From Sulfidibacter corallicola (GTDB lineage Bacteria > Acidobacteriota > Holophagae > Acanthopleuribacterales > Acanthopleuribacteraceae), in assembly GCF_017498545.1 (NCBI RefSeq), contig NZ_CP071793.1:1488001-1552000 (forward strand): 64,000 nucleotides of DNA, read 5' to 3'. Positions 8,347 through 46,609 of this stretch are shown here, piece by piece. The translations under genes were made by a program, and so were the position numbers. Under the pieces are notes generated by a model. That model was not told where the DNA came from. It did no database searches and worked only from the letters and a program-made list of their open reading frames with translations. Position 1 is the stretch's first letter. Each line of letters opens with the position of its first letter.

Positions 8347-11300
8347 ATGCACCAGATTCCGGGCTATCACATTGTGGAAACCCTTCACGAGAGCACGCGC
8401 CATTGGGTATTCCGGGCGCGTGCCGACAGCGATGGTCGATCCGTCATCCTCAAAACGCTCAAGTCCGGGGATCCCACGGTGGAAGAATTGGCCCAATTCC
8501 GACAGGAGATGAGCCTGATACGGGACCTCATCCAGAGCGGGGAGGTGGAGGGCATCGTTCCGGCCCTGGCACTGGTGACCGACGCCGAGCGACCGACCAT
8601 CGTGTTGGAGGACGTCTCGGGTGTTTCTCTCGCCCATCGTTTGGGTGGTAAACCCTTGAGCATGGACGAGTTTTTGAGTATCGCGCTGCCCTTGACACGC
8701 ACCTTGGGGCGATTGCACGAACGGGGCATCGTCCATCGCGACGTCAAGCCGGACAACATCGTGCTCGATGCCGACGAGCATCCGCTCTTGACCGATTTCG
8801 GCATCGCGGTCCTGCTCGAGAAGGGGGTGTCGCGATGGCCCGGCGAAGACTACCCGATCGGATCGCCGGCCTATCTCGCGCCCGAACAATCGGGTCGTTT
8901 GGATCGTGGTCCCGATCACCGCGGCGATCTCTACTCGCTGGGTGCCACCTTTTTCGAAATGCTGACCGGCGAGGCGCCCTTTTCCGGCGAAGACGAGATG
9001 GCGCTGATCCACGCCCACCTGGCGCGTCAACCCGGTGCACCCCATGTGGTCAACCCGGCCGTGGCACCGCTTCTTTCCGCGATCGTCCTGAAGCTGTTGG
9101 CGAAAAACCCGGATGAACGCTATCAGCACGCCCTCGGGCTGGCGGCCGATCTCGAACGGTGTCGCGAGCAGTTGGATGCCACCGGAGAGATCGAGGCGTT
9201 CCCGCTCGGCGAGGCCGACCGGGCGCCGCGCTTCCTCGAATCCCACACGCTTTGGGGCCGAGATGCGGCTCTGGCCCGCATCGGCGAGGCCCTGGCTCGC
9301 GCCGGTCAGGGATCGGTCGAGGTGGTGGCGATTCACGGCGAGGAAGGGGTCGGCAAATCCGCGTTGATCCGCGCGCTCCGGCAATTGGGCGCCGAACGGC
9401 GGGCCCACGTGGCGGAAGCGGTGTGTCTTCCGGATATGAAAGGCATCCCTCACGGCACGCTGGTCGCCGCGTTCGGGTCGCTGCTGCGCCAGATTGCGGC
9501 CGAGGACGATCAGCAGGTGGCGGCGTGGCGCGATCGCCTGCGCCTGGCGCTCGGCGACGCCCTGCTTCAACTCGGTGCCGTGATCCCCGAATTGCGCTAC
9601 ATCCTCGATGGCGAGCCCAGCGGCGAGCGCGTGCCGGCGCCTCGAGCGCCCGGACAGACCCACCTGCTGTTGGAAGGTCTGGTCCTGGGCCTGCGCAACA
9701 AACAGCACCCGCTGATCCTGGTGCTCGACGACCTCCAGTGGATCGACACGGCGAGCCTCGCGTTTTTGCAGAGCGTGGCGGTATCGGCGGGACAACACTA
9801 TCTGATGCTGGTCCTGGTGTTTCGGGATGACGTGGTGCTGACGACGCCGCCGCTGATGGCCGCGCTCTCCACCCTGGCCGATCAAAGCCAGTGGACCGAC
9901 GTCCTGCTGGAGGGCCTTTCCCAAGCGGACATCGCCCAACTGCTCGCCGCGCGAACGGGGCACAACCCCGCCGCCATGACCCCGCTGGCCGAAGCCCTTC
10001 GGATCAAGACCCGGGGAAACCCAGCCCACATCATGCACCTGCTCCAGCATTTGGAAGAAACGGACCTGTTGCGTCACGAACCGGGTGTCGGCTGGTCTTG
10101 GGATTTGGAGGGGATTCGCGCCCTGCCGATCCACGACCATTTGGCCGAATCGCTGGCCCGCGGGGTGGCCGCCCTGCCCGACGATACCCGCGAACTCCTG
10201 GAGCGCGCCGCCTGTATCGGGCCCCGTTTCAGTCTCGCCGAATTGGCCGATATCTGGGACGGGGAGCCCGCGGGCCTCTACGGCCAGTTGCGGCCGGCGA
10301 TGCTCGCGGAGTTGATTCAACCGATCGAAGGCGGATTCGGATTTCACCATGCCCGTGTCCATCAGGCGGTATACGAAGGCATCGACGAGCAGACGCGGGC
10401 CCGCCACCACTACCGCATCGGATGTTATCTTCAGACGCGCGGCGAGGCCTCGTCCTCCCTGGAAAACCTGTTTGCGATCGTGCGCCAGTTGAACCGTGCG
10501 GTGACCTGTCTCGGCACGCGGCAGGAACGCATCGATTTGGCTTCCCTGGATTTGGAGGCGGGGCGCAAAGCCCGGGAATCGATGGCCCCGCGCGAGGCGG
10601 AAACCTATCTGGAAGCCGGGTTGGCGCTTCTGCCGCCCGAGGCGGGGGCGGCGGACGCCTTGTGGTACCCCCTCAACCTGGAGTTGTTGCACGCGGTGTT
10701 CGCGGCCGGCAACGCCCTCAAGGTTCGCGACCTCGCCGAAACGCTGCTGAGCCGGGTGGACGTGCCTTCCCGCCAGGCGGCGATCTACGAGGTGCTGATC
10801 GCCCAATGCACGCGCGAGCAGGATTACGAGCGAGCCCTCGTCCTTGCGGATACGGCCCTGCGCGTTCTCGAATGGTCCCTGCCCGCCGGACCGGGCGGCT
10901 TGAGCCTGGAGGTGGCCGAGGCGACCCGGACCCGCCTGGAAGACGCGCTGGCGGGCGAGCCCGCTCGACTCGAAAGCGGGCGCATCGCCTCGGTCTTGGC
11001 GATCCTGGCTGCCGCGGTCCCGGCCGCGATGTGCTGCGACATGCGCCGCTATCGGCTCTTGGTGCATGCCATGGTCGACCTCTCGCTGGAGCACGGCTTC
11101 AACGGGGATTCCGCCTTCGGAGCGGCGTTGTTCGCGGCCGTCTGGGGCCGGTTGACCGGCGAAGAGGGGAGCGGTCTCGCGCTCGGCGAACTGGCCCGAA
11201 ATCTCGGCCAGCAGCGAGGCGACGCCAGGACCCGTTGCCGGATCGACGTGGTTCACGGCCTGATGAACATGCACTGGGGACGGCCCTTCGACGCCTGTCG

Positions 11301-14199
11301 CGAATTGTTGCTCACCGGGTTTCGCGCCGGGGTCGCCTGCGGTGAGTGGCTGTTCGCCTCGCTGGCCGCGGTGGGCCGGCTTCATCTCGCCTGGCATGAC
11401 GGCGAGCACCTCGATGATTGGATTCGGGAGGCCCGTGCCCGCATGCCGTTTCTCACCGAAACGCGCTACGGCATGGCGCGCGATCTGGGGCACTACCTCG
11501 TACAGCGGGCGGCGTCCCTGCGCGCGAAAGAGGAGCAGGGGGACGGCGGCGGGTCCGAGCGATCCTTCGAGGAAAACGCCTTTTGGGGGCGCGTGTTTCA
11601 GGAAGGCAACGACATGTTGAGCGCCATGTGCCTGGTGTTTCGAATCAAGGGCGATTACCTGTTGGGTCACTATCGCCAGGCCCTGGAAAGCGCCGAGCGG
11701 GCCCGAGCCACCCAGGATTACCTACATCAAACCGTGGGGCTCTACAATCTCGAGCTGTACGCCGGATTGTCCATGGCGGCCCTGTACCCCGAGGCCGCGC
11801 CGCTGCTGCAGGAACGTTTTCGCAACCACATCCAGACCGGTCTGCGCAAGTTGGCGGCCTGGGCGCGCGCGGAACCGCACAATTTCGGTCCGGGCCACGC
11901 CCTGCTGGAAGCCGAGACCAAACGAATCAGTGCCGACCTGGCCGGGGCCATGCGGGCCTACCAGCGGGCCATCGACGGTGCACGTGGCTCGGGTTTTCGC
12001 CACATGCTTGCCATCGCCCACGAATGTGCCTTTCGGTTCTATCGCGAGCAGGGCCTGACCACGATTGCCGGCGCCATCGCCCACAAACCGGGCCGCTATT
12101 TCGAGCAGTGGGGCGCCCATCACAAGGTGACCCTGCTGCGACGCGAGTTCGAGCAGATCGATTTGGACGTCTCCCATCCCGATTCCGAGTCTCACCGATT
12201 GGGCCAAACGACGACGCGCCAGGAACTCGATTCCAGTGCCATCACCAAGGCGTCCCAAGCCCTGGCCGGCGAGATCGAGTTCGACCGGCTCCTGAAGAAG
12301 ATGATGGACATCGTCATCGAGATCGCCGGTGCCAGCCGCGGCGTGCTGATCCTCGAACGCGAGGGTCGCTTCCTGGTCGAGGCCGTGGACGCGGCGGACG
12401 GAAGCCGAACCGAAGTCCTGAGCGCGATCCCGCTCGACGACTTCGGCGAGATTCCCTCGACGGTGGTCTACTACGTGTTGCGCACCCTGGATACCGTGGT
12501 GCTGGGCCGCACCACCGATCAATCGCGCTTCGCCCTGGATACCTATCTCGCCCGCGGAACGGTGCAGTCCGTGCTGTGCATGCCGATTCTCCATCAACAC
12601 CACCTGATCGGGGTGCTGTACCTCGAGAACCAGTGGCTGAATGATGCCTTCACCCACCTCCACCTGGAGGTGTTGCGCGTGCTGACCAACCAGATCTCGA
12701 TCAGTATCCAGAACGCGCGGTTGTTCGCCGAACTCAGCCGGGCCAAGCGCGAACTGGAGGGCCTGAATGCCGCGCTGTCGCGGCGGCTGGACGATCACTC
12801 GCGCAAGATCGAGGAGAAGAACAGCGAGCTGGATGCGCTGGAGACGATGATCAAATCCGTGCGTCGCGAAGCCGACTATTCCGAGGTGCTGCGCGTGCTG
12901 TTGGAGCAGGGGCTGCGGTTCTTCGAAAAGGCCGAGCGCGCCCTGTTCCTGGTGTTGGACAAGGACGAGGCCCACTACGCGATGGCGGCCTCGGTCGGAT
13001 ACGAGCCCGGTGCCTGGTCGGCGTTCGCGCTGCAGGAAGCGGCCCTGCACGACCTGTTCGGCGGCGGTGAGGAGTGCGAGGTGGGGACCTGGCTGCTGCG
13101 TCCCTTCGCCGAGGAACCGGCCTATGGCCCCTTCCTCGAACGGGGTTGGGCGGACCACCTTCCCAAGGCGGTGCTCTCGCTGGCGCTGTGCCCCGACGAG
13201 CGGGTCGAGGGCGTCCTGGTGTTCGAGAGCCGCGATGAAGCGGCCGCTTTCGATTCCACCGATGCCCGGCGATTGGCGCGGTTTCGCGACCACGCGATGG
13301 CGGCCTTCGTCAAGGCGGGACTGTGGGTCGAGGTGCGTCGGACGAGCAACGAATTGGTCAAGACCCAGAAGCAGCTCGCGGTCCAGGAGCGTCTGGCCTC
13401 ACTGGGCACCCTGGCCGCCGGTATCGGCCACGAGATTCGCAACCCCTTGAATTTCATCAACAATTTCGCCTCCGTGTCCCAGGATCTGGCCGGCGAACTG
13501 GCCGCGATCCTCGAGCAGCAGCACGAATTCATCGCCGACCAGGCCTATCACGATGCCGATCTGTTGCTCGGCGACCTGGCCAACAACGCCCAGCTCATCC
13601 ACCAACACGGCAAGCGCGCCAACGGCATCATCAATTCGATGATGTTGCTGTCGCGGGGCCAGTCCATGTGCCGCGAATCGATCGACGTCAACAGCCTGGT
13701 CGACGAGTACACCGAACTTTCCTACCACGGCATGCGCGTCCAGAATCACTCGGCCAACGTGGCCATCTCGCGGGCGTTCGACGAGGACGTGGGCCACATC
13801 TACGCGGTCGCCCAGGACTTGAGCCGGGTGTTGGTCAATCTGTTGAACAACGCCTTTTACGCGGTCATCCAGAAGCGCAGGGAAGGGCATGAAGCCTACC
13901 GGCCCGAAATCCAGGTGTCGACGCGGGCCATGTCGGAGTGGGTGGAGATTCGACTGCGCGACAACGGGACCGGCATCCCCCCGGAAATACTGGACAAGAT
14001 CTTCAATCCCTTTTTCACCACCAAGCCGCCCGATCAGGGCACCGGATTGGGCTTGCCGATCTGCCGGGAGATCATCGAGAAGCTGCATCACGGCAAGATG
14101 CTGGTTACCAGCGAAGTGGGGCAATTCACCGAATTCGTGTTGCGCCTGCCCAAGGACAGCCGGGTGACCGGTCGCATGGCGGGAAGAGAAGGCCCGTAG
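8347..14199 (+). CDS. Trifunctional Ser/Thr kinase / AAA ATPase-TPR / GAF sensor histidine kinase
   Basis: 1950-residue signalling giant. Order: Ser/Thr protein kinase (about 5-265, active-site GIVHRDVKPDNIV and TDFGIAV); AAA-type ATPase (Walker A GEEGVGKS at about 331-338, Walker B LILVLDDLQWID); a long alpha-helical TPR-like stretch (about 680-1270); a GAF domain (about 1295-1450); a coiled coil (SRAKRELEGLNAALSRR); a second, divergent GAF-like region; HisKA with the phospho-acceptor at His1695 (GIGHEIRNPLNFI); and HATPase (NNAFYAV, DNGTGIPP, GTGLGLPI). This architecture is known in other bacteria. It is presumably cytosolic, as no membrane segment is visible. There is no receiver domain in the protein; the next gene has its own kinase, so the partner regulator is unknown. 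The upstream Shine-Dalgarno is weak. Confidence 0.92.
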   Translation: MHQIPGYHIVETLHESTRHWVFRARADSDGRSVILKTLKSGDPTVEELAQFRQEMSLIRDLIQSGEVEGIVPALALVTDAERPTIVLEDVSGVSLAHRLGGKPLSMDEFLSIALPLTRTLGRLHERGIVHRDVKPDNIVLDADEHPLLTDFGIAVLLEKGVSRWPGEDYPIGSPAYLAPEQSGRLDRGPDHRGDLYSLGATFFEMLTGEAPFSGEDEMALIHAHLARQPGAPHVVNPAVAPLLSAIVLKLLAKNPDERYQHALGLAADLERCREQLDATGEIEAFPLGEADRAPRFLESHTLWGRDAALARIGEALARAGQGSVEVVAIHGEEGVGKSALIRALRQLGAERRAHVAEAVCLPDMKGIPHGTLVAAFGSLLRQIAAEDDQQVAAWRDRLRLALGDALLQLGAVIPELRYILDGEPSGERVPAPRAPGQTHLLLEGLVLGLRNKQHPLILVLDDLQWIDTASLAFLQSVAVSAGQHYLMLVLVFRDDVVLTTPPLMAALSTLADQSQWTDVLLEGLSQADIAQLLAARTGHNPAAMTPLAEALRIKTRGNPAHIMHLLQHLEETDLLRHEPGVGWSWDLEGIRALPIHDHLAESLARGVAALPDDTRELLERAACIGPRFSLAELADIWDGEPAGLYGQLRPAMLAELIQPIEGGFGFHHARVHQAVYEGIDEQTRARHHYRIGCYLQTRGEASSSLENLFAIVRQLNRAVTCLGTRQERIDLASLDLEAGRKARESMAPREAETYLEAGLALLPPEAGAADALWYPLNLELLHAVFAAGNALKVRDLAETLLSRVDVPSRQAAIYEVLIAQCTREQDYERALVLADTALRVLEWSLPAGPGGLSLEVAEATRTRLEDALAGEPARLESGRIASVLAILAAAVPAAMCCDMRRYRLLVHAMVDLSLEHGFNGDSAFGAALFAAVWGRLTGEEGSGLALGELARNLGQQRGDARTRCRIDVVHGLMNMHWGRPFDACRELLLTGFRAGVACGEWLFASLAAVGRLHLAWHDGEHLDDWIREARARMPFLTETRYGMARDLGHYLVQRAASLRAKEEQGDGGGSERSFEENAFWGRVFQEGNDMLSAMCLVFRIKGDYLLGHYRQALESAERARATQDYLHQTVGLYNLELYAGLSMAALYPEAAPLLQERFRNHIQTGLRKLAAWARAEPHNFGPGHALLEAETKRISADLAGAMRAYQRAIDGARGSGFRHMLAIAHECAFRFYREQGLTTIAGAIAHKPGRYFEQWGAHHKVTLLRREFEQIDLDVSHPDSESHRLGQTTTRQELDSSAITKASQALAGEIEFDRLLKKMMDIVIEIAGASRGVLILEREGRFLVEAVDAADGSRTEVLSAIPLDDFGEIPSTVVYYVLRTLDTVVLGRTTDQSRFALDTYLARGTVQSVLCMPILHQHHLIGVLYLENQWLNDAFTHLHLEVLRVLTNQISISIQNARLFAELSRAKRELEGLNAALSRRLDDHSRKIEEKNSELDALETMIKSVRREADYSEVLRVLLEQGLRFFEKAERALFLVLDKDEAHYAMAASVGYEPGAWSAFALQEAALHDLFGGGEECEVGTWLLRPFAEEPAYGPFLERGWADHLPKAVLSLALCPDERVEGVLVFESRDEAAAFDSTDARRLARFRDHAMAAFVKAGLWVEVRRTSNELVKTQKQLAVQERLASLGTLAAGIGHEIRNPLNFINNFASVSQDLAGELAAILEQQHEFIADQAYHDADLLLGDLANNAQLIHQHGKRANGIINSMMLLSRGQSMCRESIDVNSLVDEYTELSYHGMRVQNHSANVAISRAFDEDVGHIYAVAQDLSRVLVNLLNNAFYAVIQKRREGHEAYRPEIQVSTRAMSEWVEIRLRDNGTGIPPEILDKIFNPFFTTKPPDQGTGLGLPICREIIEKLHHGKMLVTSEVGQFTEFVLRLPKDSRVTGRMAGREGP

Positions 14200-27262: not shown

Positions 27263-28450
27263 TGAAACGACTCCCTTTGGAGTCTCCGAATGCCGAGAGA
27301 GCCGTCGTGCCCGGTAGGTTCATCCGCCGGATGAACATTTCGAAGTGATCCATGTGAGGAGTTCCCGCATGCTTTGAGGGCCGGCACGGCAGTAAGTTGG
27401 CCGGCCCGGCCGACACTTCGAAGTGATCAAGGCTGCGAAAAAACGAAAGGCCAAAGAGCGAAGCACCGATGAAAGCAGGGCATCGGGAAGCACCAATCAA
27501 AGCAGGGCATCGGAATGTGCGACCAGCGGTCGCACCTACCTGGCACGACGACCCTCTCAGGCTGCCGGGACGACCACGATGACTCGCTTCGCGTAGTTTC
27601 TTTCTCGAAATCGAGCTGGGAACGCCCGCTGGACCGGGGCTCTCTGGAAACGAATCCGTTTGGAGTTTCCGAATGCCGAGAGAGTCGTCGTGCCCGGTAG
27701 GTTCATCCGCTGGATGAACATTTCGAAGTGATCCATGCTTGGAGTTCCCGCATGCTTTGAGGGTCGGCACGGCAGTAAGTTGGCCGGCCCGGCCGACACT
27801 TCGAAGTGATCAAGACTGCGAAAATACGAAAGGCCAAAGAGCGAAGCACCAATCAAAGCAGGGCATCGGGAAGCACCAATGAAAGCAGGGCTTCGGAATG
27901 TGCGACCAGCGGTCGCACCTACCTGGCACGACGACCCTCTCAGGCATCCGGGATCACCACGATGGCTCGCATCGCGTAGTTTCTTTCTCGAAATCGAGCC
28001 GAGGGCTCGCCCGCTGGACCGGGGCTCTCTGGAAACGAATCCGTTTGGAGTTTCCGAATGCCGAGAGAGTCGTGGTGCCCGGTAGGTTCATCCGCTGGAT
28101 GAACATTTCGAAGTGATCCATGCGAGGAGTTCCCGCATGCTTTGAGGGTCGGTATTGCAGTAAGTTGGCCGGCCCGGCCGACACTTCGAAGCGATCAAGA
28201 CTGCGATAATACGAAACGCCAAAGAGCGAAGCACCAATGAAAGCAGGGCATCGGGAAGCACCAATGAAAGCAGGGCATCGGGAAGCACCAATGAAAGCAG
28301 GGCTTCGGAATGTGCGACCAGCGGTCGCACCTACCTGGCCATACCGGCCGTGCCATACCGGCCGTGCCCGACGACCCTCTCAGGCATCCGGGACCACCAC
28401 GATGGCTCGCTTCGCGTAGTTTCTTTCTCGAAATCGAGCTGAGGGCCCAC
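27263..28450. repeat. REP-like palindrome array A (three tandem units)
   Basis: Three tandem units of about 384, 385 and 412 bases. Each carries a plus-oriented REP-like element (27304-27336, 27687-27719, 28072-28104) and an inverted one (27517-27549, 27900-27932, from 28312). The element reads GTCGTGCC, C or A, GGTAGGT, then a hairpin whose loop is GCT (once GCC). Plus copies have stem GTTCATCC/GGATGAAC; inverted copies have GTGCGACC/GGTCGCAC. A third GC-rich hairpin (GTTGGCCG-GCC-CGGCCGAC, one wobble pair) sits between them, preceded by GTAA. Short frames translated from it are by-products of the repeat. It fills the gap between the ATPase and sigma factor genes. Confidence 0.9.
28231..28309 (+). 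repeat. 27-base minirepeat nested in array A
   Basis: GAAGCACCAATGAAAGCAGG followed by GCATCGG occurs three times in tandem here, and only twice in each of the two preceding array units (about 27460 and 27840). Copy number differs between units, which points to slippage or unequal recombination. Confidence 0.8.
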
Positions 28451-36014: not shown

Positions 36015-36030
36015 ACGGTGTTTCACTCTT

Positions 36031-36590
36031 GAAACAAAGTATGTAAAGTTCGAAGGTAACGCTAAAAATCTCTGGTGGAACAAGCTGCGTTTGGAGCGTC
36101 CGAATGCGGAGAGATTCGTCGTGCCAGGTAGGGGCATCAGGAGCGGTAAGCCCGCCGGATGAACTAGTCGAAGTAATCCAGGCGAGGAGTTCCCGCGTGC
36201 GGTGAGGATTGCCATTGCCGCAGGTTGGGTACGGCCGGTATGGCCGCTGGCCCGACTTTTCGAAGCGATCAAACCTACGTAAATACGAAACGCCAAAGAG
36301 CGAAGCATCAATAGAAGCAGGAGCTTCGGAATGTGCGACCAGCGGTCGCACCTACCTGGCCTTATCGGCCCTGCACGACGACCCTCTCAGGCAGCCGAGA
36401 ACAGCATGATGGCTCGCTTCGCATTGTTTCTTTCTCGAAATCAAGCTAGGCGCACACCCCGTTTGTTCGTTGCTCTTATTTAACAAACTGTGTAAAGTTC
36501 GATGATAAAGCTAAAAACCTAAAATGACGGATGTTCGGGGAGTTCGTCAATAAATGTCGGCCCAGCGGGCCAACCTACTGCGACGACGCC
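36031..36590. repeat. REP-like palindrome array B
   Basis: One degenerate plus-oriented element (about 36117-36165, stem interrupted) and one intact inverted element (36333-36360, GTGCGACC/GGTCGCAC, with a short insertion before its CACGACG end). A second inverted element at 36556-36587 has a new stem, GTCGGCCC/GGGCCAAC, with the same AGC loop. A module containing GTAAAGTTCGA and GCTAAAAA occurs at both sides (36031-36070 and 36482-36520) and again at the end of array C. No gene is present between 36015 and 36740. Confidence 0.85.
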
Positions 36591-36740: not shown

Positions 36741-38771
36741 TCAAGCGCCGCGGGCGTCGGGGTGATGGGTGTGTTCGAGGCGGAAATGGTTGGGTCGCCC
36801 GTCCACTTCGACCAACACGGCGCCCATCGCTTCGGCCTGGGACCGTTTCATCAGGCGGAAGGCGTCGCCGATTTTGACCGCCGTGGCGTGCCAGGGGGTC
36901 AACCAGCAGTCTTCCGCGTGGCCCAGCAGAATGCCGACCCGATCCGCGTGGGGGTGCTGGGGATAGATCGACAAGTGAATCGCGTGCGGGAAACACTCGC
37001 CCACCAGTCGGGTCCAGGCGTTCGATCGCACCATCAACTGGCAGGCGCGCTCGGCGCATTCCCGCCGGACGCCCGTGCGGTTTCGTTCGGGAAACATCGC
37101 CACCGTATCCTCGAAGAGCAGGCGATGGATCCCCTGGAACAGGGACCGATCCTGGTCCACCGAATGGGTGCGTGCCTTCAGGGTTTCCAGGGATTCGGCG
37201 TAGTGCACGGCCAAGTGGTCCCGCATTTCTTCGAAGCTCGATTCCTTGAACAGGTCCTCGTGGTGCAGCGTATTGAGCCGGTTCGTGCCCAGACGCGCGA
37301 TGAGATGGTCGATGCCGCGACGATAGGCCGAAACCTCTTCGTCATCGGCCATGACCAGGTCGGAGAATACCCGGCCGTCGGAGCAGATGGTGATCTGGGC
37401 GCCGGGCTCGTAAATTTTCCCGATGTGCTCGCAGACCCATTGCAGGCGACGCAGGGCCTGCTCCTCCGCCATATCCGGCAGCTTGCCCAGCACTTTGCTG
37501 GCGGTGTTGGGTGATTTGGCGGGAAAGGCGGGCAGGACGAAGTGAATCGGGTGGTTGTTCGCCACGAATTGCATGACCCTGTCCAGGTGGGGCGCCATGC
37601 AATCGGGACACATGTCGCGTCGGCAATGGTGGTGGCCGGGCAGCAAGCGGCGATGCGGGGTCAGAACCCGCAAGATCTGCTCGGCTTTGGTGCGAATGCC
37701 CGGATCCGGTGCCTGTCGGGGCGGGGTGAGGGTGGGGGCGATCACGCGCATGGCGTCCGGGGTGGCGAATTGACGGCGGATTCGGTCGAGTCGTCGGGCT
37801 TCCAGGCGAGCCACGTTCCGGTTGGATTGCTCGATGACCTGGTTGAGCGCGGTCAACAGGGTCTTGCGCCACAGACGACCGATGTCGCCGGTCAACGAGC
37901 GATAGGCCGCCAGATCCATCTCCAGCAGCCAACAGGGGCCCTCGGCCACGACCGACGCGTTGCGCGGCGTGCCCAACAACAGGCCCAACATGCCGAACAG
38001 GGCGCCGGTGCCCAGGGTGGTAACCGGGAAGGCCTTGTGGGATCCCACATTGCGCAGCAGCCGCAAACGCCCGTTGGCCAGGAGGAATACCGAGCGATGG
38101 GTGTCGCCCTCCAGGAACAACGTCTCGCCCTCCTGCAGGGTATGCGAACGCATGACTCTGGAAATGGCCTCTACCTGGCGGTCACCGGCTTCGGCCAGTG
38201 GGGGGAGCTGCCGCAACGCCAGCGGGGCCGCGTATGACGTGAAGAGGGCTTCGGCCTGGGGCGCCATGTCGCCGGGGCCCGCCGCCTGGGCGGATCGTTC
38301 CGGTTTGCCCTGGGCGCCTTCGGCCAGTCGCGCCACGCGTTTTCCCGACGCCACCGCACGGTGTGCCAGGACCGAAAGAATATCTTCCAAAAGGGCGTCA
38401 TGTGCCGTTTCGTGATGGGTCAGCAGGTGATCGAGCTGGGTCCTGTCGAACATCCGTACCGTCGCAGGCCCTTTGGCACGCAGCGTATTGGCGTAGGTCC
38501 CTCGGGTCAGGAAGGCCGAGCCCTCGGCCAGCAATTCCCCTTGACTGACGCGTTCGATCACCCGTCCGCAGACCGACCGCTCCAGCGTGCCTTCCGCCAG
38601 AAAACCCAACATGTCGGCGGGTCGGTTTTGATGCCAGAGCACCTCGTCGGAAGTGAGGGTGATTTCCCGCCAATCCCGGATCCGTTCCGACCAGGGCGCG
38701 GGCTCGGCTCGAGCGAAGGCCAGGGTGCTTGAAATCGCTTCTCTCAGACATTGTTGCGTTTCAGGTGTCAT
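36741..38771 (-). CDS. Fusion of two cyclic-nucleotide-binding domains with an isocyanide synthase (DIT1/PvcA) domain
   Basis: 676 residues. Residues about 35-145 and 190-320 are two CRP-like cyclic-nucleotide-binding folds (WHQNRPADMLGFLAEGTLE; EGETLFLEGDTHRSVFLLANG). The second keeps the TPRNASV arginine of a phosphate-binding cassette; the first has TYANT there and may not bind. Residues about 360-676 match the DIT1/PvcA isocyanide synthase family: FPAKSPNTASKVLGKLPDMA (416-435), YEPGAQITICSDGRVFSDL (454-472). These enzymes turn an amino-acid amine into an isonitrile using ribulose 5-phosphate. A cysteine/histidine cluster (HHHCRRDMCPDCM, 380-392) precedes the domain. GGGGAGA precedes the ATG at 38771. 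No PvcB-like oxygenase is adjacent. Confidence 0.85.
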   Translation of the reverse strand: MTPETQQCLREAISSTLAFARAEPAPWSERIRDWREITLTSDEVLWHQNRPADMLGFLAEGTLERSVCGRVIERVSQGELLAEGSAFLTRGTYANTLRAKGPATVRMFDRTQLDHLLTHHETAHDALLEDILSVLAHRAVASGKRVARLAEGAQGKPERSAQAAGPGDMAPQAEALFTSYAAPLALRQLPPLAEAGDRQVEAISRVMRSHTLQEGETLFLEGDTHRSVFLLANGRLRLLRNVGSHKAFPVTTLGTGALFGMLGLLLGTPRNASVVAEGPCWLLEMDLAAYRSLTGDIGRLWRKTLLTALNQVIEQSNRNVARLEARRLDRIRRQFATPDAMRVIAPTLTPPRQAPDPGIRTKAEQILRVLTPHRRLLPGHHHCRRDMCPDCMAPHLDRVMQFVANNHPIHFVLPAFPAKSPNTASKVLGKLPDMAEEQALRRLQWVCEHIGKIYEPGAQITICSDGRVFSDLVMADDEEVSAYRRGIDHLIARLGTNRLNTLHHEDLFKESSFEEMRDHLAVHYAESLETLKARTHSVDQDRSLFQGIHRLLFEDTVAMFPERNRTGVRRECAERACQLMVRSNAWTRLVGECFPHAIHLSIYPQHPHADRVGILLGHAEDCWLTPWHATAVKIGDAFRLMKRSQAEAMGAVLVEVDGRPNHFRLEHTHHPDARGA

Positions 38772-39040: not shown

Positions 39041-41299
39041 TCAGTAGTGTTGCAGTCGATCCATCGCGATGCGTTCTTGGAACTTCACCGCGTCCGAATA
39101 TATTTTCTGGGCGTTCTTCAGCTCTTTCTTCACGTCCGGGATAAAGCTGTTCAGCAAGGCGGTCGCTTCCTCTTCACTGGTGACATCTTGGTTCCCGTTA
39201 TGGGCCTTGAGGTAGGGATCGTTGTTGATGTCGGTGAGGATATCCGTGTAATCGGCACCCATGCCCTTCTGTTTTTCCGCCTTGACTCTCGCCTCGAAAT
39301 AATTGGCCGTATCGAGTTGATCGTGCAAGAGTTCCATGGTGTTGCTGGCCGAGCTGATGGTTTTCTCCAACAGCGGGTTCATGGTTGCGTTGGTGGTGTC
39401 GTCGTAGGAACCGATGGAAGAAGCATCGTGACCCTTCAGGTGGAATGGCGGGCTGACGTCCATGGAGAAACTGCGGGAAAACCCGATCGGCGCGGTGTCG
39501 AGTGTCGCTTTTTTCGTGTTGGGTTGAATGTCGTACTCGCCCGTGCTGGCATCGTAGTTCACGACATGGGTGACACCGCCTTTTTGTTTGAACGGATCCT
39601 GCTTTTGAAAGCCGACGCTGCGCGGCATTTGACTCAACCCATCGTTCAGGGCGATCGAAGTCTTGGCACGACCTTTCGAGGCCACCAACTCGTCGACTCC
39701 TGCCGATACCACCTGAAGGTGGTCGATCCGTCCCTTGAGACTGGAGTTCGCAATTTGCTGATAGGCCTTGCTCGAATAATCCCGGCAAATGGCCACACCC
39801 AGTTTCAGCCCGGTCTTGGGCGCCTCGAACAGGAAGGAGTCACCGTCGACGTGCGCTTCCTGGGCTTTGAGTTTGACGTCTCTGAGATTGTTCTGCGGAT
39901 GGGCCTTGATAATGGAAGATTGAAATGATTCGTGACGGAACGCCGCATTCGCGACGGTGTTGAACTGGCTCCTGCTCGAGTAGGCGACCCGTTCATAGGC
40001 GGGACTGTCGATGTCGGAGGGATGGACCTTGCTGACGAAGTCCATCTTGCCGTCTTTGCCGCCTTCGACGATGATGGCCTTGTTGTCGAACGATTTGAAC
40101 ATCGAGCTGGAATCGCGGATCCTGAAAAAGTCCCGGTAGGCTCTTTTGCCGGTCGACATACTCTTGAGGTCCATGGTTCGGATACGGCTGTCGATACCGG
40201 TGCGCTCCTGGGAGTTCAACAGGTTGGGGTAGAAGTTCTTGCGGAAATCCTGCATCAACACGTTGGCTTCCACCGAAGATCCGGCGGCCTTGAAAAAGGC
40301 GGCCATTTTCTGGAGGGTCGCATCCTTGAGGGCGCGGTCGGCACTTTTGGACGAGTGGTAGGGCATCGTCAACGGTTTCATCAACGCCCTGGCTTCGGCG
40401 AACTGACCCTTGGCGACCAAATGGTTGAAGGTTGCGATTTGCTTGTCGTCGGGCCATTTCGAGTCGTGAATGGCGTGCAGTTCCTTCATGGCCGAGGCGT
40501 GCGCGTTCATGGTCTTGAGGCGTTGAGTGACGCTTTGCATCGCGCCTTTGCGATCGAAGCCGGCCTTCGAGATCTCATCCGGCGTCGAGTCCGGCGACAG
40601 TCCCGCGTGGCGCAACTCGTCGTTGAACATGTCGCCCGCCGTCGCGAGCAGGATGCGCGCTTTGGAGGGTTTCTTATACACTTCGTCGGCGGTGCTCGTG
40701 GCTTCCTGATAGGCGTTGCTCAAATCTTTGCCCAACTGTTCACCCAAAAATTGGACGTCGGTTTCGTCGAGCTGTTTGAGGCTTTCGGGACGTTGGGCCG
40801 TGACCATGGTGCCCAACACGAAAACGGCGTCTTCGAAGATCGGATTCGACGCGTATTCCTGAATTTTGGCCAGGGTATAGTCGTGGAGTTCCTGGTTGAA
40901 GGCCGTGCCGTATTCGCTCCAGAAAAACTCGGGCAGGGTATAGACCTTGGCGGTGCCGGGGCGGTTGTCCGAGACGTTGTCCAGGTGAATTTTGGTGTAG
41001 GCGTCGAATACGGCCCTGGCCTTGGTATCGATGGCGCCCTTGGAGTTGTGCAACTGCGGCTGTTTCGCGATATTGACCTGTAACTGAAGGATTTGTACTC
41101 GTTTGGCGTTGGCTTCCTTGGCCTTCGTCATGCTGACTTTTTTAGCGGGGGTGGTGGAGGCCACATGCCCGTCCTTGGTGACGTCGGGCAGGGATGAAGC
41201 GCGTGCGCGACTTTTTTTCAGGCCCAAGGGATTGGTGTGCCCGGTCTGGATCTGTTGTGTAGAATTCTGGCGATGAAGTCCATGCAATTTGACCGACAT
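39041..41299 (-). CDS. Large nitrilase-superfamily (carbon-nitrogen hydrolase) protein with internal insertion
   Basis: 752 residues. The core of a carbon-nitrogen hydrolase can be traced: strand VQILQLQVNI (68-77), YTLPEFFWSEYG with Glu124, strand DAVFVLGTMVTA, then after about 230 residues AIIVEGGKDGKMDFVSKVHP with Lys424, and GLKLGVAICRDY with Cys505. That is the Glu-Lys-Cys triad in order. The insert (about 170-400) is helical and unrecognised. The N-terminal 60 residues are Ser/Thr/Lys-rich and probably disordered. The C-terminal 200 residues are unassigned. No signal peptide is visible. AGGAGATATATT precedes the ATG. It lies 269 bases upstream of the isocyanide synthase gene on the same strand. 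Substrate unknown; an amidase or nitrile/isonitrile-related role is speculation. Confidence 0.75.
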   Translation of the reverse strand: MSVKLHGLHRQNSTQQIQTGHTNPLGLKKSRARASSLPDVTKDGHVASTTPAKKVSMTKAKEANAKRVQILQLQVNIAKQPQLHNSKGAIDTKARAVFDAYTKIHLDNVSDNRPGTAKVYTLPEFFWSEYGTAFNQELHDYTLAKIQEYASNPIFEDAVFVLGTMVTAQRPESLKQLDETDVQFLGEQLGKDLSNAYQEATSTADEVYKKPSKARILLATAGDMFNDELRHAGLSPDSTPDEISKAGFDRKGAMQSVTQRLKTMNAHASAMKELHAIHDSKWPDDKQIATFNHLVAKGQFAEARALMKPLTMPYHSSKSADRALKDATLQKMAAFFKAAGSSVEANVLMQDFRKNFYPNLLNSQERTGIDSRIRTMDLKSMSTGKRAYRDFFRIRDSSSMFKSFDNKAIIVEGGKDGKMDFVSKVHPSDIDSPAYERVAYSSRSQFNTVANAAFRHESFQSSIIKAHPQNNLRDVKLKAQEAHVDGDSFLFEAPKTGLKLGVAICRDYSSKAYQQIANSSLKGRIDHLQVVSAGVDELVASKGRAKTSIALNDGLSQMPRSVGFQKQDPFKQKGGVTHVVNYDASTGEYDIQPNTKKATLDTAPIGFSRSFSMDVSPPFHLKGHDASSIGSYDDTTNATMNPLLEKTISSASNTMELLHDQLDTANYFEARVKAEKQKGMGADYTDILTDINNDPYLKAHNGNQDVTSEEEATALLNSFIPDVKKELKNAQKIYSDAVKFQERIAMDRLQHY

Positions 41300-41689
41300 A
41301 ATATATCTCCTGCTTTTTTCCCAAGTAAATCCGATGGAAAGGAGGACATAGTTTCGCTAGCCCAGGCTGACATAGTGATGAACCATTTCACCATGGGATG
41401 CTGAAACCATAAAACGTCGTATGTGATAATTGGTCGAACGGTAGTATTCAAACATAGCGACAGGGGTGGGCACATGGGCATCCACCGGGTTGGCGAGGTG
41501 AAATCCTGGCGAACGTTTCCGATGGGTGGGCAGGGTCGCTTGTGGGGGATCGAGGCCCGTTCGGCCTGTGGTGATGTAGAGAATAAGTCTCAATCGTGGA
41601 GAGAAAATGGAGACGTTCTGAAAAAAGGAAAAAAAGTGGAGTGGCGAGGGAATAAACGATAACTCGTGGCGCACTGCCGCTTTTTCCGA

Positions 41690-42615
41690 ATGACTGTGAT
41701 TGCATTCGTGTGGATCTGCGTGATTCGTGGGCAAGTCATCTTCCCGTTGTTGTCCACTAAAACCACGAAAAGACACGAAAAACGGATCGCTGCAGGGTTG
41801 GTTCCTCCGCGCGGTGGATCGCGATTGGCCGATTTTTTTTGTCCACGAATCACACGGACTGACACGAATAGACAGGACCCATGGGCGCCACACGGCAGGT
41901 ACTCTGGGAAAGCCTGAACTTAAAATCAAAAGGTTCAAGCGCTTATGCCGATTTGGTTGTCATTTTGAATCATCTGGGCTTGTGTTCCGATCTGTGAAAC
42001 ATAACGCAGCCGGCCTCGAACGGAATGACGGTGATCGTATCCGTGTGGATCTGCGTGATTCGCGGGCAAGTCATCTTCCCGTTGTTGTCCACTAAAACCA
42101 CGAAAAGACACGAAAAACGGATCGCTGCAGGGTCGGTTCCTCCGCGCGGTGGATCGCGATTGACCTATATTTTTTGTCCTCGAATCACACGGACTGACAC
42201 GAATAGACAGGACCCCCCCACGGGCGCCGCACGGCAGGTACTCTGGGAAAGTCTGAACTTAACATCAAAAGGTTCAAGCGCTTATGCCGATTTGGTTGTC
42301 ATTTTGAATCATCTGGGCTTGTGTTCCGATCCGTGAAACATAACGCAGCCGGCCTCGAACGGAATGACGGTGATTGCATTCGTGTGGATCTGCGTGATTC
42401 GTGGGCAAGATATCAAATACCGCGTGTGACGCGTCGCCAGGCAGGAACCGAACCTGTCGGTCTTGTGAGCAAATTTCTCATTCTCAGATCTAACATACTG
42501 AAAAACAACGGAGTGTGCTCCTGAAACCCATCGCAGAAGCGACCGGATCACTGGGCAGGCCATGCTGGAAGTTTCCTTTTCGTGTTTTTTCGTGCTTTTA
42601 GTGGACAAAAAAGGG
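41690..42615. repeat. AT-rich repeat cluster, tandem 335-339-base units with inverted ends
   Basis: GTGGATCTGCG starts units at 41710, 42045 and 42384 (third truncated). Each full unit holds GTCCACTAAAACCACGAAAAG, split from a GATCGC-flanked tract, a CACGAATCACACGGACTGAC segment, and GTTCAAGCGCTTATGCC. At 42440-42560 a diverged copy of the 21.1-21.4 kb repeat follows (TCAGATCTAAC, AGAAGCGA). The cluster closes at 42575-42612 with the CACGAAAA/TAGTGGACA sequence inverted. No transposase or convincing gene is present between 41300 and 42700. Confidence 0.85.
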
Positions 42616-42709: not shown

Positions 42710-44347
42710 TCAGAAGCAGTCGGAATCGCCGATGCGCTCCCAGACGGACGCCACACCGGGCTCCTCGCCTTGGACCCACCACTGGTTGCGCCAGATGGCG
42801 CCGTCGTGATGGACCTCGCTACCGGCGGGATAGGCGATCGCGGCGTTCCAGAACGTCGGCACATCGCTCAGCAGCGACCACACCTGGCTCTGCTGGCTGG
42901 GCTCTTCCGAATTGGTCCACCAGTTGGCGCGCCACACCAACTGGTTGTGGCTGACCACATCACCGGATTGGTAGACGCTGCCCGACTGCCATGCCGGGTG
43001 GTTGCCCGCATCGGGGTCGGTGGTATCGCAGCCACCGCCGGCGGCGGTGACCGTCACCTCGCTCGAGGCGAACACCGAGACCTCGCCGTCGCTCACTTCC
43101 ACGGTCAGGGTGAAGGTTTGGGTGGAAGGCACGGTGGGTGCCGTGGCCTCGAGGGTCGCGCTGCCGAGATCCACCGCCGTGAAATCGGACGGCAGCCGCC
43201 AGGCGTAGCTCAAGGGGTCGCCGTCCGCGTCGCTCGCCGCGGCGGTCAGGCTGAACGCGTCGCCGGAGGCCACCGCCACCGCGGCGGGCAGTTGCACGAC
43301 CGGCGGCGTGTTGGTGTTGGGCTTTTTCACATCGAGCTGGTAACTGTACTCGGCGTCGCGCACATATACCTTGTTGGCAAAGAGATCGCCGGCGTCGTAG
43401 ACCACCGCGTCGTCACGCAGCACGCCCACCCGCGCGGCGGTCTCGTTGTCGTTGACGGCGGTCGCCAGTTGGCGGGTCCACACGGCGAGGTCCGCGTTGT
43501 CCGCGGTGATGTCGAATACCGTGAAGACCTGCTCGGCGCCGCTGCCGTCGAAGATCCGGAACCACACCTCGTCGCCTGGCTCCGGAGCCACGTCCGGCGT
43601 CACGTAGGAACCGGCGCTGACCCAGGCCGGCGGGGTCACGTCGTCCACCAACCAAATGTCGCTGCAGTTGTAGAAGCCCTCGCCGGCGGGGTCGATCCGC
43701 TGCCAGCGGGTGTACAGGATGGCGCGGCCGCTGCGGTTGGTGGGAAGGCTGACCTGCATGATGTAGTACTTCTTGCCTTCGATGGTGACCAACTGCGCGT
43801 CCTCTACTTCATCCACCAAGTCCAGGTGGTCCCAGGTCAGGGTCTCGGTGGCGGGGTCGAAACCCGGCTTGGTGAGGAAGAACTGAAAATAGCTGGGATC
43901 GTGGGGGGTCGCCGCGTAATAACGGAACTCGAAACGCCCCTGGTCGTCCAGTTCGAGATACTGCACCTGCCAATCGGGATGGGGCACGTCCATGCCGGCC
44001 TTGGCACTGTCGCCGCCGGCGCACAGGGTGCCGTCGGGGACGGCGGCCTTGACCGCTTCCATGTTGCGGTAATCGGCCACCAATTTTGCAAACTCGATGG
44101 CTTGATAAAATTGGTAGGTGCCCGAAGTCAGGAAGGCGGCGCGGCAGGCCGCGTTGGGAATCGCCGAACCGTCGGGTGGCCACCAATAGCCGCCGTCGAG
44201 TTCGCAATAGGCCTGCCTAGCTCTGGGGAAGTCGGCATAGCCATGAGCCCAAAGGGGTTGTGAGAAACCAAGAACCGTGATGGCGATGCCTGAAAGAACG
44301 CAGAGATGACGTAGGGAAAAGCGTGGACACAGGGCGTGACCTTGCAT
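42710..44347 (-). CDS. AA10 lytic polysaccharide monooxygenase with chitin-binding modules
   Basis: 545 residues. The signal peptide is removed after Ala34, exposing His35 as N-terminus (AHGYADFPRARQ), as the copper histidine brace requires. The second brace histidine is His149 (AATPHDPSYFQFF) and the axial Phe225 (GEGFYNCSD) fits AA10. A middle domain (about 235-350) resembles the second domain of GbpA-like proteins. A PKD-like beta domain (about 355-435) and two CBM5/12-type chitin-binding modules (WQSGSVYQSGDVVSHN; YPAGSEVHHDGAIWRNQWW) follow. Oxidative cleavage of chitin or cellulose outside the cell is expected. GGAGG precedes the ATG at 44347, which is preferred over an upstream in-frame start. 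Confidence 0.92.
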   Translation of the reverse strand: MQGHALCPRFSLRHLCVLSGIAITVLGFSQPLWAHGYADFPRARQAYCELDGGYWWPPDGSAIPNAACRAAFLTSGTYQFYQAIEFAKLVADYRNMEAVKAAVPDGTLCAGGDSAKAGMDVPHPDWQVQYLELDDQGRFEFRYYAATPHDPSYFQFFLTKPGFDPATETLTWDHLDLVDEVEDAQLVTIEGKKYYIMQVSLPTNRSGRAILYTRWQRIDPAGEGFYNCSDIWLVDDVTPPAWVSAGSYVTPDVAPEPGDEVWFRIFDGSGAEQVFTVFDITADNADLAVWTRQLATAVNDNETAARVGVLRDDAVVYDAGDLFANKVYVRDAEYSYQLDVKKPNTNTPPVVQLPAAVAVASGDAFSLTAAASDADGDPLSYAWRLPSDFTAVDLGSATLEATAPTVPSTQTFTLTVEVSDGEVSVFASSEVTVTAAGGGCDTTDPDAGNHPAWQSGSVYQSGDVVSHNQLVWRANWWTNSEEPSQQSQVWSLLSDVPTFWNAAIAYPAGSEVHHDGAIWRNQWWVQGEEPGVASVWERIGDSDCF

Positions 44348-44985
44348 GAGGAACCTCCAGAAGTGATGGGGTCTTGGAAAACGGCGCAAGGCGATTCGAG
44401 GGAGAGGGAGTGATATTTGTCAAGTTATCGCTCAAAATAATCGTGAACCGTTTTCGCAGCGCTCTGAGGGGAGCGGGATTGAGAATGAGCACGGGAAGAG
44501 GACGCACCCGTGAAAAGGGCGCGGTGGTTCGGCGCCCCGCTGCCGAGCGGGCGGCCGAATCGAGGGAATGATGCAATACTTTGTGTTTGGTGTAGTTGAG
44601 AAACCCAGGAGGAAGCCCGAAGATCGCGAGCGATCCCTTCGTTCGGAGGGCGGGGGGTGCCGCTGGTGAGGCGACCGGATCGAGCGCGGGGCGAGCGCGT
44701 CCTGGAGAGGGTAGCCAAGAGGGTGGGGGAACGGGATGATAATTGTCACAAGTTTGTAAAGTTAAGTAACTAAACAAATCTAACTCAAAATATCGCCCAT
44801 GCAACCCTTTTTTTCGCCCAGTGCTCGCCGGCCCCGGTTTTCGGGCCTTTCGGCAGGGGGCGCGCCGTGCATCGGGTTCGATGTCGCTTCCCGGTTTTCC
44901 TCATTCGTGCAACGGGTTTGTAAAAGCGGAGGTGCGGCGGCCCAGTCGGTGGCCCGCCGACTCGCACTTTTGCAAACGAACCTGC
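44348..44985. other. Intergenic region upstream of the LPMO gene
   Basis: About 640 bases. The part next to the LPMO start is moderately AT-rich (GATATTTGTCAAGTTATCGC around 44413) and should contain its promoter. A second AT-rich patch lies at 44735-44790. No coding frame with family resemblance or RNA gene is recognised. Confidence 0.45.
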
Positions 44986-46165
44986 CTGCAGCGCCCGACC
45001 GCCGTGAAATTCGCCGAGCCCGGTAGGTTCAGCATGGGCGGTTGCCGGCCCGGCCGACACTTCGGAGCGGTCAAGGCTGCGAGGATACAGAACGCCAAAA
45101 AGCGAAGCTCCAACCAAAGCAGGGCTCGGGAATGTGCGACCAGCGGTCGCACCTACCTGGCACGACGCCTCATTTCGCCTTGTTTCTTTCTCGAAATCGA
45201 GCTGGGCGCCCGCCCCGTTCGTTCGGGGCTCCCTCGAAACAAGCCTGCCCGAAGTGCCAGAATGCCGAGAGATTCGTCGTGCCCGGTAGGTACATCCGCT
45301 GGATGTACTTTCTGAAGTGACTCATGATCAGAGTACCCGAATGCTTTGAGAGCCGGCACCGCAGTACGGTAGCCGGCCCGGCCGACACTTCGGAGCGGTC
45401 AAGGCTGCGAAAAAACGGAACGCCAAAAAGCGAAGCTCCAACCAAAGCAGGGCTCGGGAATGTGCGACCAGCGGTCGCACCTACCTGGCACGACGCCTCA
45501 TTTCGCCTTGTTCCTTTCTCGAAATCAAGCTGGGCGCCCGCCCCGTTTGTTCGGGGCTCTCTCGAAACAAGCCTGCCCGAAGTGCCCGAATGCCGAGAGA
45601 TTCGTCGTGCCCGGTAGGTACATCCGCTGGATGTACTTTCTGAAGTGACTCATGATCAGAGTACCCGAATGCTTTGAGAGCCGGCACCGCAGTACGGTAG
45701 CCGGCCCGGCCGACACTTCGGAGCGGTCAAGGCTGCGAAAAAACGGAACGCCAAAAAGCGAAGCTCCAACCAAAGCAGGGCTCGGGAATGTGCGACCAGC
45801 GGTCGCACCTACCTGGCACGACGCCCCATTTCGTCTTGTTTCTTTCTCGAAATCAAGCTGGGTATGCCCGCTGGTCCGGGGCTCTCTCGAAACAAGCCTG
45901 CCCGAAGTGCCCGAATGCCGAGAGATTCGTCGTGCCCGGTAGGTACATCCGCTGGATGTACTTTTCGAAGTGACTCATGATCAGAGTACCCGAATGCTTT
46001 GAGAGCCGGCACCGCAGTACGGTAGCCGGCCCGGCCGATACTTCGGAGCGGTCAAGGCTGCGAAAAAAGGGAACGCCAAAAAGCGAAGCTCCAACCAAAG
46101 CAGGGCTCGGGAATGTGCGACCAGCGGTCGCACCTACCTGGCACGACGCCTCATTTCGCCTTGTT
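44986..46165. repeat. REP-like palindrome array C (four tandem units)
   Basis: Inverted elements at 45134-45166, 45462-45494, 45790-45822 and 46115-46147 give periods of 328, 328 and 325 bases. Plus-oriented elements lie between them at 45276-45308, 45604-45636 and 45929-45961. Plus copies carry stem GTACATCC/GGATGTAC, a double compensatory change from GTTCATCC/GGATGAAC in array A; inverted copies keep GTGCGACC/GGTCGCAC. A degenerate element begins the array near 45020. All short frames inside are repeat by-products. Confidence 0.92.
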
Positions 46166-46609
46166 CCTTTCTCGAAATCAAGCTGGGCGCCCGCCCCGTT
46201 TGTTCGGGGCTCTCTTGAAAACAAAGTGGTACTTTCGACCGGGGATCGGTCTTGCCGTCATCGAAACAAAATCGAGAAACCAGGAAATTCAAAAACCAGG
46301 AAGTGCAGGACCATGATGTGACCCCAAATGCGGATCCTTTCCTGGTTTCCGATGTTCATGGGTTCCTGCTAAATTTTTCGGATGAACGACCCATGGCCCT
46401 TCGCGAGAAACCAGGTGGTCTGTTTCTTTCTCGAAATCGAGCTGGGTAGGCCCGCTGGTGCGTGGCTCTGATGAAGCAAACCGTGTAACGTTCGAAGATA
46501 GAGATAAAAGGCCAAGATGGTGAATTTCCTCAATAAAAGTCGGGGCGGCGATCCGAAGGGTGCCTCGCCGGCGCGCTCCGATGTTCCCCCAGTCGCCGCC
46601 GGTCTTCGG
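46166..46609. other. Tail of array C and spacer
   Basis: Contains several AAACCAGGAA-like short repeats (46270-46420), then the terminal module also found around array B (GTGTAACGTTCGA... at 46473-46513) and CAATAAAAGTCGG shared with 36548. No gene is seen. Confidence 0.55.

Follow-up and report, generated by a model that had tools for sequence, protein, structure and literature searches.

The window analysed here is a 64,000-nucleotide stretch of the Sulfidibacter corallicola genome (contig NZ_CP071793.1, positions 1,488,001 to 1,552,000), and the subject of this study is a gene within it whose product joins two cyclic nucleotide-binding (CNB) domains to a PvcA-type isocyanide synthase domain. 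The paper that describes S. corallicola M133 alongside Acanthopleuribacter pedis, and places it in the family Acanthopleuribacteraceae (Acidobacteria), uses the word "isonitrile" 0 times in its main text (PMC8841776). The reading frame is intact, lies on a single contig of 11,786,365 bp and has a ribosome-binding-like site. The parts of the gene are as follows (window coordinates, all on the minus strand):

36741..38771, CNB-CNB-PvcA fusion gene, 676 residues
38436..38666, CNB domain 1 (residues about 36-112), phosphate cassette degenerate
37896..38183, CNB domain 2 (residues about 197-292), cassette Arg270 kept, Glu position occupied by Met
37770..37889, long helix (residues 295-334) from domain 2 to the synthase domain in the predicted secondary structure, putative coupling element
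37587..37625, Cys-x4-Cys-x2-Cys-x3-His motif (C383, C388, C391, H395), possible metal site
36774..37703, PvcA-type isocyanide synthase domain (residues 357-666), with FPAKSPN, ICSDGRVF and LTPWH intact

The original prediction, made from the DNA letters, of an isocyanide synthase domain joined to two cyclic nucleotide-binding folds without a DNA-binding helix was confirmed. PF05141, whose failure on the C-terminal part had been named beforehand as a possible refutation, matches over the whole domain with 226.8 bits (curated cut-off 26.4; positions 1-268 of the 273 in the profile), and the domain has the PvcA fold in the predicted structure. Two copies of PF00027 (cNMP-binding domain) are supported by sequence match and by predicted fold. 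In a Pfam scan no helix-turn-helix family matched the protein at E <= 0.001; since the C-terminal helix-turn-helix was not found, a Crp/Fnr-type DNA-binding regulator was ruled out. In the predicted structure the synthase domain comes after the domain 2 helix.

The motifs FPAKS, CSDGRVF and LTPWH are common to the window protein and PvcA (PDB 3e59), and they are largely kept across 18 fusion proteins. The equivalog model for L-tyrosine isonitrile synthase (NF045653) scored 226.1 bits, below its 600-bit cut-off, and therefore gives no substrate assignment. We predict that the domain would form an isonitrile from tyrosine or tryptophan and ribulose 5-phosphate. The Cys-x4-Cys-x2-Cys-x3-His motif, a possible metal site, was considered as a fusion-specific sensor and not adopted: it occurs in all 12 CNB fusions and in 115 of 138 proteins of 480-600 residues, some fusions lack it, and cyanobacterial synthases that stand alone have it too. 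This distribution suggests a feature of the synthase clade.

The fusion in other bacteria

A survey of proteins with this synthase domain, of which 120 of 266 were listed, includes 12 CNB-PvcA fusions, the window's own among them. The window protein is thus a rare architecture of a known enzyme family, as had been proposed. A contig scan with two exact peptide patterns, which may leave out the window's own genome, located the fusion at 3 of 34 loci: in Plesiocystis pacifica (Myxococcota; protein P0022, locus L002), in a Kangiellaceae metagenome-assembled genome (MAG; P0070, L003) and in an unclassified bacterial MAG (P0005, L025). Two other members (P0002, P0007) come from Alphaproteobacteria MAGs. 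The genes of P0002, P0003, P0007 and P0058 are on contigs 31-103 kb long. A second scoring of 7,999 candidate proteins, with 120 of 241 matches listed, did not have the known members P0011, P0016, P0022 and P0070 among those listed. The survey of homologues suggested in the original prediction thus found the fusion in other phyla, and its presence in other assemblies, together with the intact frame, rules out an assembly error or a chance joining.

At each of the three loci there are, besides the fusion, DUF924, a gene for an O-methyltransferase, one for a TauD-P450 fusion and a second PvcA gene of divergent sequence (Pfam on the genes of L002 and L003), and four CNB-PvcA proteins themselves carry a C-terminal DUF924 (P0005, P0011, P0016 and P0070; Pfam rerun for the last two). 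The positions of the clusters, and of a synthase discussed below, are:

L002, 7624-14626, CNB-PvcA cluster, with the Plesiocystis fusion gene at 9839-11875
L003, 537-7260, CNB-PvcA cluster
L025, 9842-16744, CNB-PvcA cluster
L028, 9902-14094, linker-only synthase, at a locus with TauD, P450 and DUF924

More generally, 31 of 33 PvcA loci have a gene for a TauD-type dioxygenase no more than about 3 kb away from the synthase. The two exceptions are L033 and L032, and at L032 the match stops close to the end of the contig. A set of dioxygenase, P450 and O-methyltransferase is expected to give an O-methylated vinyl isonitrile. By analogy, this may be the product of the CNB cluster, possibly as a P450-coupled dimer like fungal xanthocillin, for which a XanB/XanG model is given in PMC5974471. 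The cluster in Plesiocystis, the Kangiellaceae MAG and the other MAG is a candidate for making such a methylated, perhaps dimeric, isonitrile.

Three synthases that lack both CNB domains and keep only the linker (L028, from the cyanobacterium Scytonematopsis, P0006 and P0019), group with the CNB fusions; the Cys3His motif is missing in all three. In a quick tree of 55 rows, the 12 CNB proteins and these three form a group with a Shimodaira-Hasegawa-like approximate likelihood ratio test (SH-aLRT) value of 98. A careful tree of 47 rows, which left out three second-PvcA rows, L026, L027, L028, L030 and L031, groups the 12 CNB proteins with two linker rows at a support (92/87) that is not decisive, and a placement of the window protein outside this group was not rejected (approximately unbiased test, p-AU 0.29). 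The highest identity that its synthase domain reaches with any one protein is 56%, with the TetR-type P0008. The tandem-CNB N-terminus that these proteins have in common is a stronger argument for common descent than the tree.

TetR-like N-termini are common in the protein set. Most of the other proteins among the 120 listed have 500-560 residues. Pfam searches of 76 of the 138 proteins of 480-600 residues (about 533 residues each) found PF05141 in all 76, TetR_C_23 in 29 and TetR_N in only 5, so the DNA-binding part is mostly unrecognisable. Tblastn ties N-termini missed by Pfam (P0004) to those it names (P0095) at the same loci, and many of these proteins are named AcrR family in their source records. 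TetR-like/PvcA proteins, from hosts that include Hymenobacter and Pyrinomonadaceae, occupy 16 of 33 PvcA loci (L005-L008, L011, L013, L015, L016, L018-L020, L022-L024, L026, L029), and a TauD dioxygenase gene follows the synthase at all 16. P0111 is a further example of this fusion. Two regulator-type folds thus appear, from the sequences, to have been placed on one enzyme family.

According to a survey of PF05141, bacterial members commonly either consist of the single domain or are fused to a dioxygenase, and fusions to nonribosomal peptide synthetases (NRPS) occur only in fungi (PMC5974471). The earlier statement that known synthases are stand-alone or oxygenase-fused was therefore incomplete, given these fungal proteins and the TetR-like fusions. 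In the open-access literature we found no paper joining "isocyanide synthase" and "cyclic nucleotide-binding". Searches on isonitrile or isocyanide synthase, TetR and IsnA returned no CNB or TetR-like fusion in titles and abstract beginnings, and the available parts of PMC13005658 and PMC13083261 have no bearing on the question.

Phosphate cassettes and the proposed control

A domain that binds cAMP or cGMP usually carries both residues of the phosphate-cassette pair, Glu and Arg, as in PKA and CRP. In domain 1 the cassette is complete (GE...R[TS]A[TS], with Gly and Arg at the equivalents of positions 82 and 93) in 11 of 11 relatives, including P0012, whose domain 1 is truncated at its start. 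Domain 2 has the Arg in 12 of 12 family members and the Glu in none. The window protein reads AE...YAN in domain 1 (Ala at 82, Glu83 kept, Tyr at 93) and GM...R in domain 2, which agrees with the earlier observation that only the second fold has a cassette Arg. Because domain 1 has neither the Arg nor the Gly before the Glu, we predict that this copy has lost classical cyclic-nucleotide control or that another ligand has taken over. The proposed direct cyclic-nucleotide switch was thus not borne out for the window protein and fares better for its relatives, whose domain 1, to judge from its cassette, could be a cyclic-nucleotide binding site. Four class III cyclase genes in the genome score above the PF00211 cut-off, which makes it plausible that the cell contains such a messenger.

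The sequences themselves show the fusion, its occurrence in other phyla, the intact motifs of the synthase and the sister proteins with a TetR-like N-terminus; the folds are predictions. From both, regulation by the N-terminal module appears to be the best explanation. We put at about one half the probability that the two CNB-fold domains gate the isonitrile-forming domain allosterically through the long helix. On this reading the module would form dimers and take in the signal of a small ligand. For the relatives that ligand would be cAMP or cGMP, bound in domain 1, with domain 2 as a relay that binds none itself. We hold more tentatively the wider proposal that isonitrile formation is switched at the enzyme, by a second messenger through the tandem CNB domains and by a TetR-type ligand domain in the sister proteins, with the input re-tuned or dropped in Sulfidibacter.

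Several observations weigh against allosteric gating. Residues 336-353, between the long helix and the synthase, have a predicted local distance difference test (pLDDT) score under 50, so the model does not support rigid coupling. Neither CNB domain of the window protein holds the Glu and Arg pair. The linker-only L028 lies in a TauD/P450/DUF924 cluster, so the CNB module is dispensable there. Among NCBIfam models other than PvcA, the one that the N-terminal half matches best is that of family 2B encapsulins (E 2.8e-14; 53 bits, far under the cut-off of 400; best stretch residues 182-303), whose CNB domain is reported not to bind cyclic nucleotides (PMC12407261). Finally, the window protein is on a long branch (0.64-0.73) and the conserved cluster partners are not beside its gene, so this copy could be drifting.

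In one alternative, which we give clearly less than an even chance, the window copy may be the orphan of a horizontally acquired cluster, with a synthase that may still work, a decaying sensor and the rest of the pathway gone. Its genome has no other PF05141 gene, and among 297 genomes drawn from a larger set of the phylum only its own has one. With the window protein as query, 50 of 60 relatives matched only in the CNB part and 10 had no match, and nothing matched beyond residue 340. The phylum is not empty, however, since other collections hold TetR-type synthases from Pyrinomonadaceae (L005, P0013). The window has no TauD and no second PvcA, the flanking genes belonging to other Pfam families, and the genome has no close TauD-P450 (no genome-wide search was made for DUF924 or the methyltransferase). 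This agrees with the earlier remark that no PvcB-type oxygenase lies beside the gene, and for that reason the product would be an isocyano acid that stays saturated, barring the action of an oxygenase encoded elsewhere. Mean identities, comparing the window protein to 10 relatives with the mean among those 10 (P0012 dropped for its truncated N-terminus), are 36.1% versus 45.5% in domain 1 and 52.3% versus 61.6% in the synthase domain. Yet in domain 2 the window protein has diverged no further than its relatives have (43.9% versus 40.0%), whereas domain 1 lost its cassette, and P0070 is about as diverged in domain 1 and keeps the cassette. The intact frame and ribosome-binding-like site also speak against decay, as do the retained residues invariant in an 18-row alignment, although these are kept by definition. 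An orphan copy would be compatible with regulation by the module in the relatives.

CRP-type and TetR-type proteins are both dimers, so the N-terminal module might instead be a dimerisation or scaffold part that only holds two synthase domains together. The presence of two unrelated regulator folds in the same place, the lack of the cassette Glu from domain 2 throughout the family and the encapsulin precedent of a CNB fold without nucleotide binding (PMC12407261) favour this. The full cassette strictly kept in domain 1 of the 11 relatives is hard to explain without ligand binding, and we regard a pure scaffold as unlikely.

To our knowledge, few reports describe control at the protein level for the backbone enzymes of natural-product pathways. 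A sensor built into the synthase would bring such control, compared with the known control of isocyanide synthesis, which acts on expression, e.g., under copper starvation in Aspergillus. If allosteric gating is correct, the synthesis of a natural-product backbone in bacteria, leading to reactive, metal-binding isonitrile groups, would be under direct second-messenger control at the enzyme itself. Since a single enzyme family carries both kinds of module, CNB and TetR-like, with a dioxygenase gene nearby, purified proteins can put the question to a direct test.

The upstream gene and other features of the window

Upstream of the fusion gene lies, on the same strand:

39041..41299, minus strand, lineage-specific gene for a 752-residue protein with a predicted divergent carbon-nitrogen-hydrolase-like fold

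The protein has invariant Glu (PEFFWS) and Cys (IC-x-DY) motifs, is present in three copies in the genome and has a homologue in Acanthopleuribacter pedis. Its structure model is poor and resembles carbon-nitrogen hydrolases, and a PDB sequence search gave one match of no use (E 0.91). It may possibly be a partner of the synthase, but we consider it very improbable that this nitrilase-like protein converts the isonitrile or a derived formamide and that the pair forms a small new pathway. Between 35.9 and 42.7 kb there are 4 promoter-like and 8 terminator-like sites (shuffle means 2.2 and 8.2), which is uninformative, and an Rfam search of the window gave 0 matches that reach the gathering score.

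A family of intergenic repeats of about 300 nt, partly tandem with a spacing of 325-385 nt, occurs at window positions 27500-28440, 36020-36520 and 45040-46480, and has 63 matches genome-wide on both strands. A separate tandem repeat of about 335 nt (94-95% identical; 41688-42414) lies in the gap upstream of the 752-residue gene. Elsewhere on the minus strand are a 595-residue fusion of a Rieske [2Fe-2S] domain to a cytochrome P450 (21463-23250) and a GbpA-like lytic polysaccharide monooxygenase with GbpA_2, PKD and two CBM5/12 stretches (42710-44389).

Comparison with known systems

The synthase domain has the motifs and the predicted fold of PvcA from P. aeruginosa (PDB 3e59) and of the isonitrile synthase PIsnA (PDB 9dh4, 9dhm), with 34-38% identity over 305-318 aligned positions. 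Those chains, of 306-330 residues, lack the N-terminal module found in the window protein. In the pvc system the partner is the dioxygenase PvcB. The isn system likewise pairs IsnA with the dioxygenase IsnB (PMC5974471), and none is found beside the window gene. The fusions of isocyanide synthases (ICS) to dioxygenases (ICS-DOX) or to NRPS (ICS-NRPS), such as XanB, IcsB and CrmA, are multidomain synthases like the window protein, but are joined to catalytic partners and not to regulator-type modules (same source). Similar in plan are the TetR-like/PvcA proteins (P0004, P0095), for which no paper was apparent in titles and abstract beginnings of the open-access literature: they share the synthase family and a regulator-like N-terminus, with a TetR-like fold in place of the tandem CNB.

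On the side of the N-terminal module, family 2B encapsulins carry a CNB domain inserted in an HK97 shell protein, unlike the window fusion, and the likeness is the NCBIfam match to the N-terminal half. The regulatory CNB domains of PKA and PKG act on a kinase, and CRP-type regulators on DNA. The PKA regulatory subunit and PKG have tandem CNB folds, as does the window protein, and CRP-type regulators share the fold; unlike all of these, the window protein has a full cassette in neither of its two folds.
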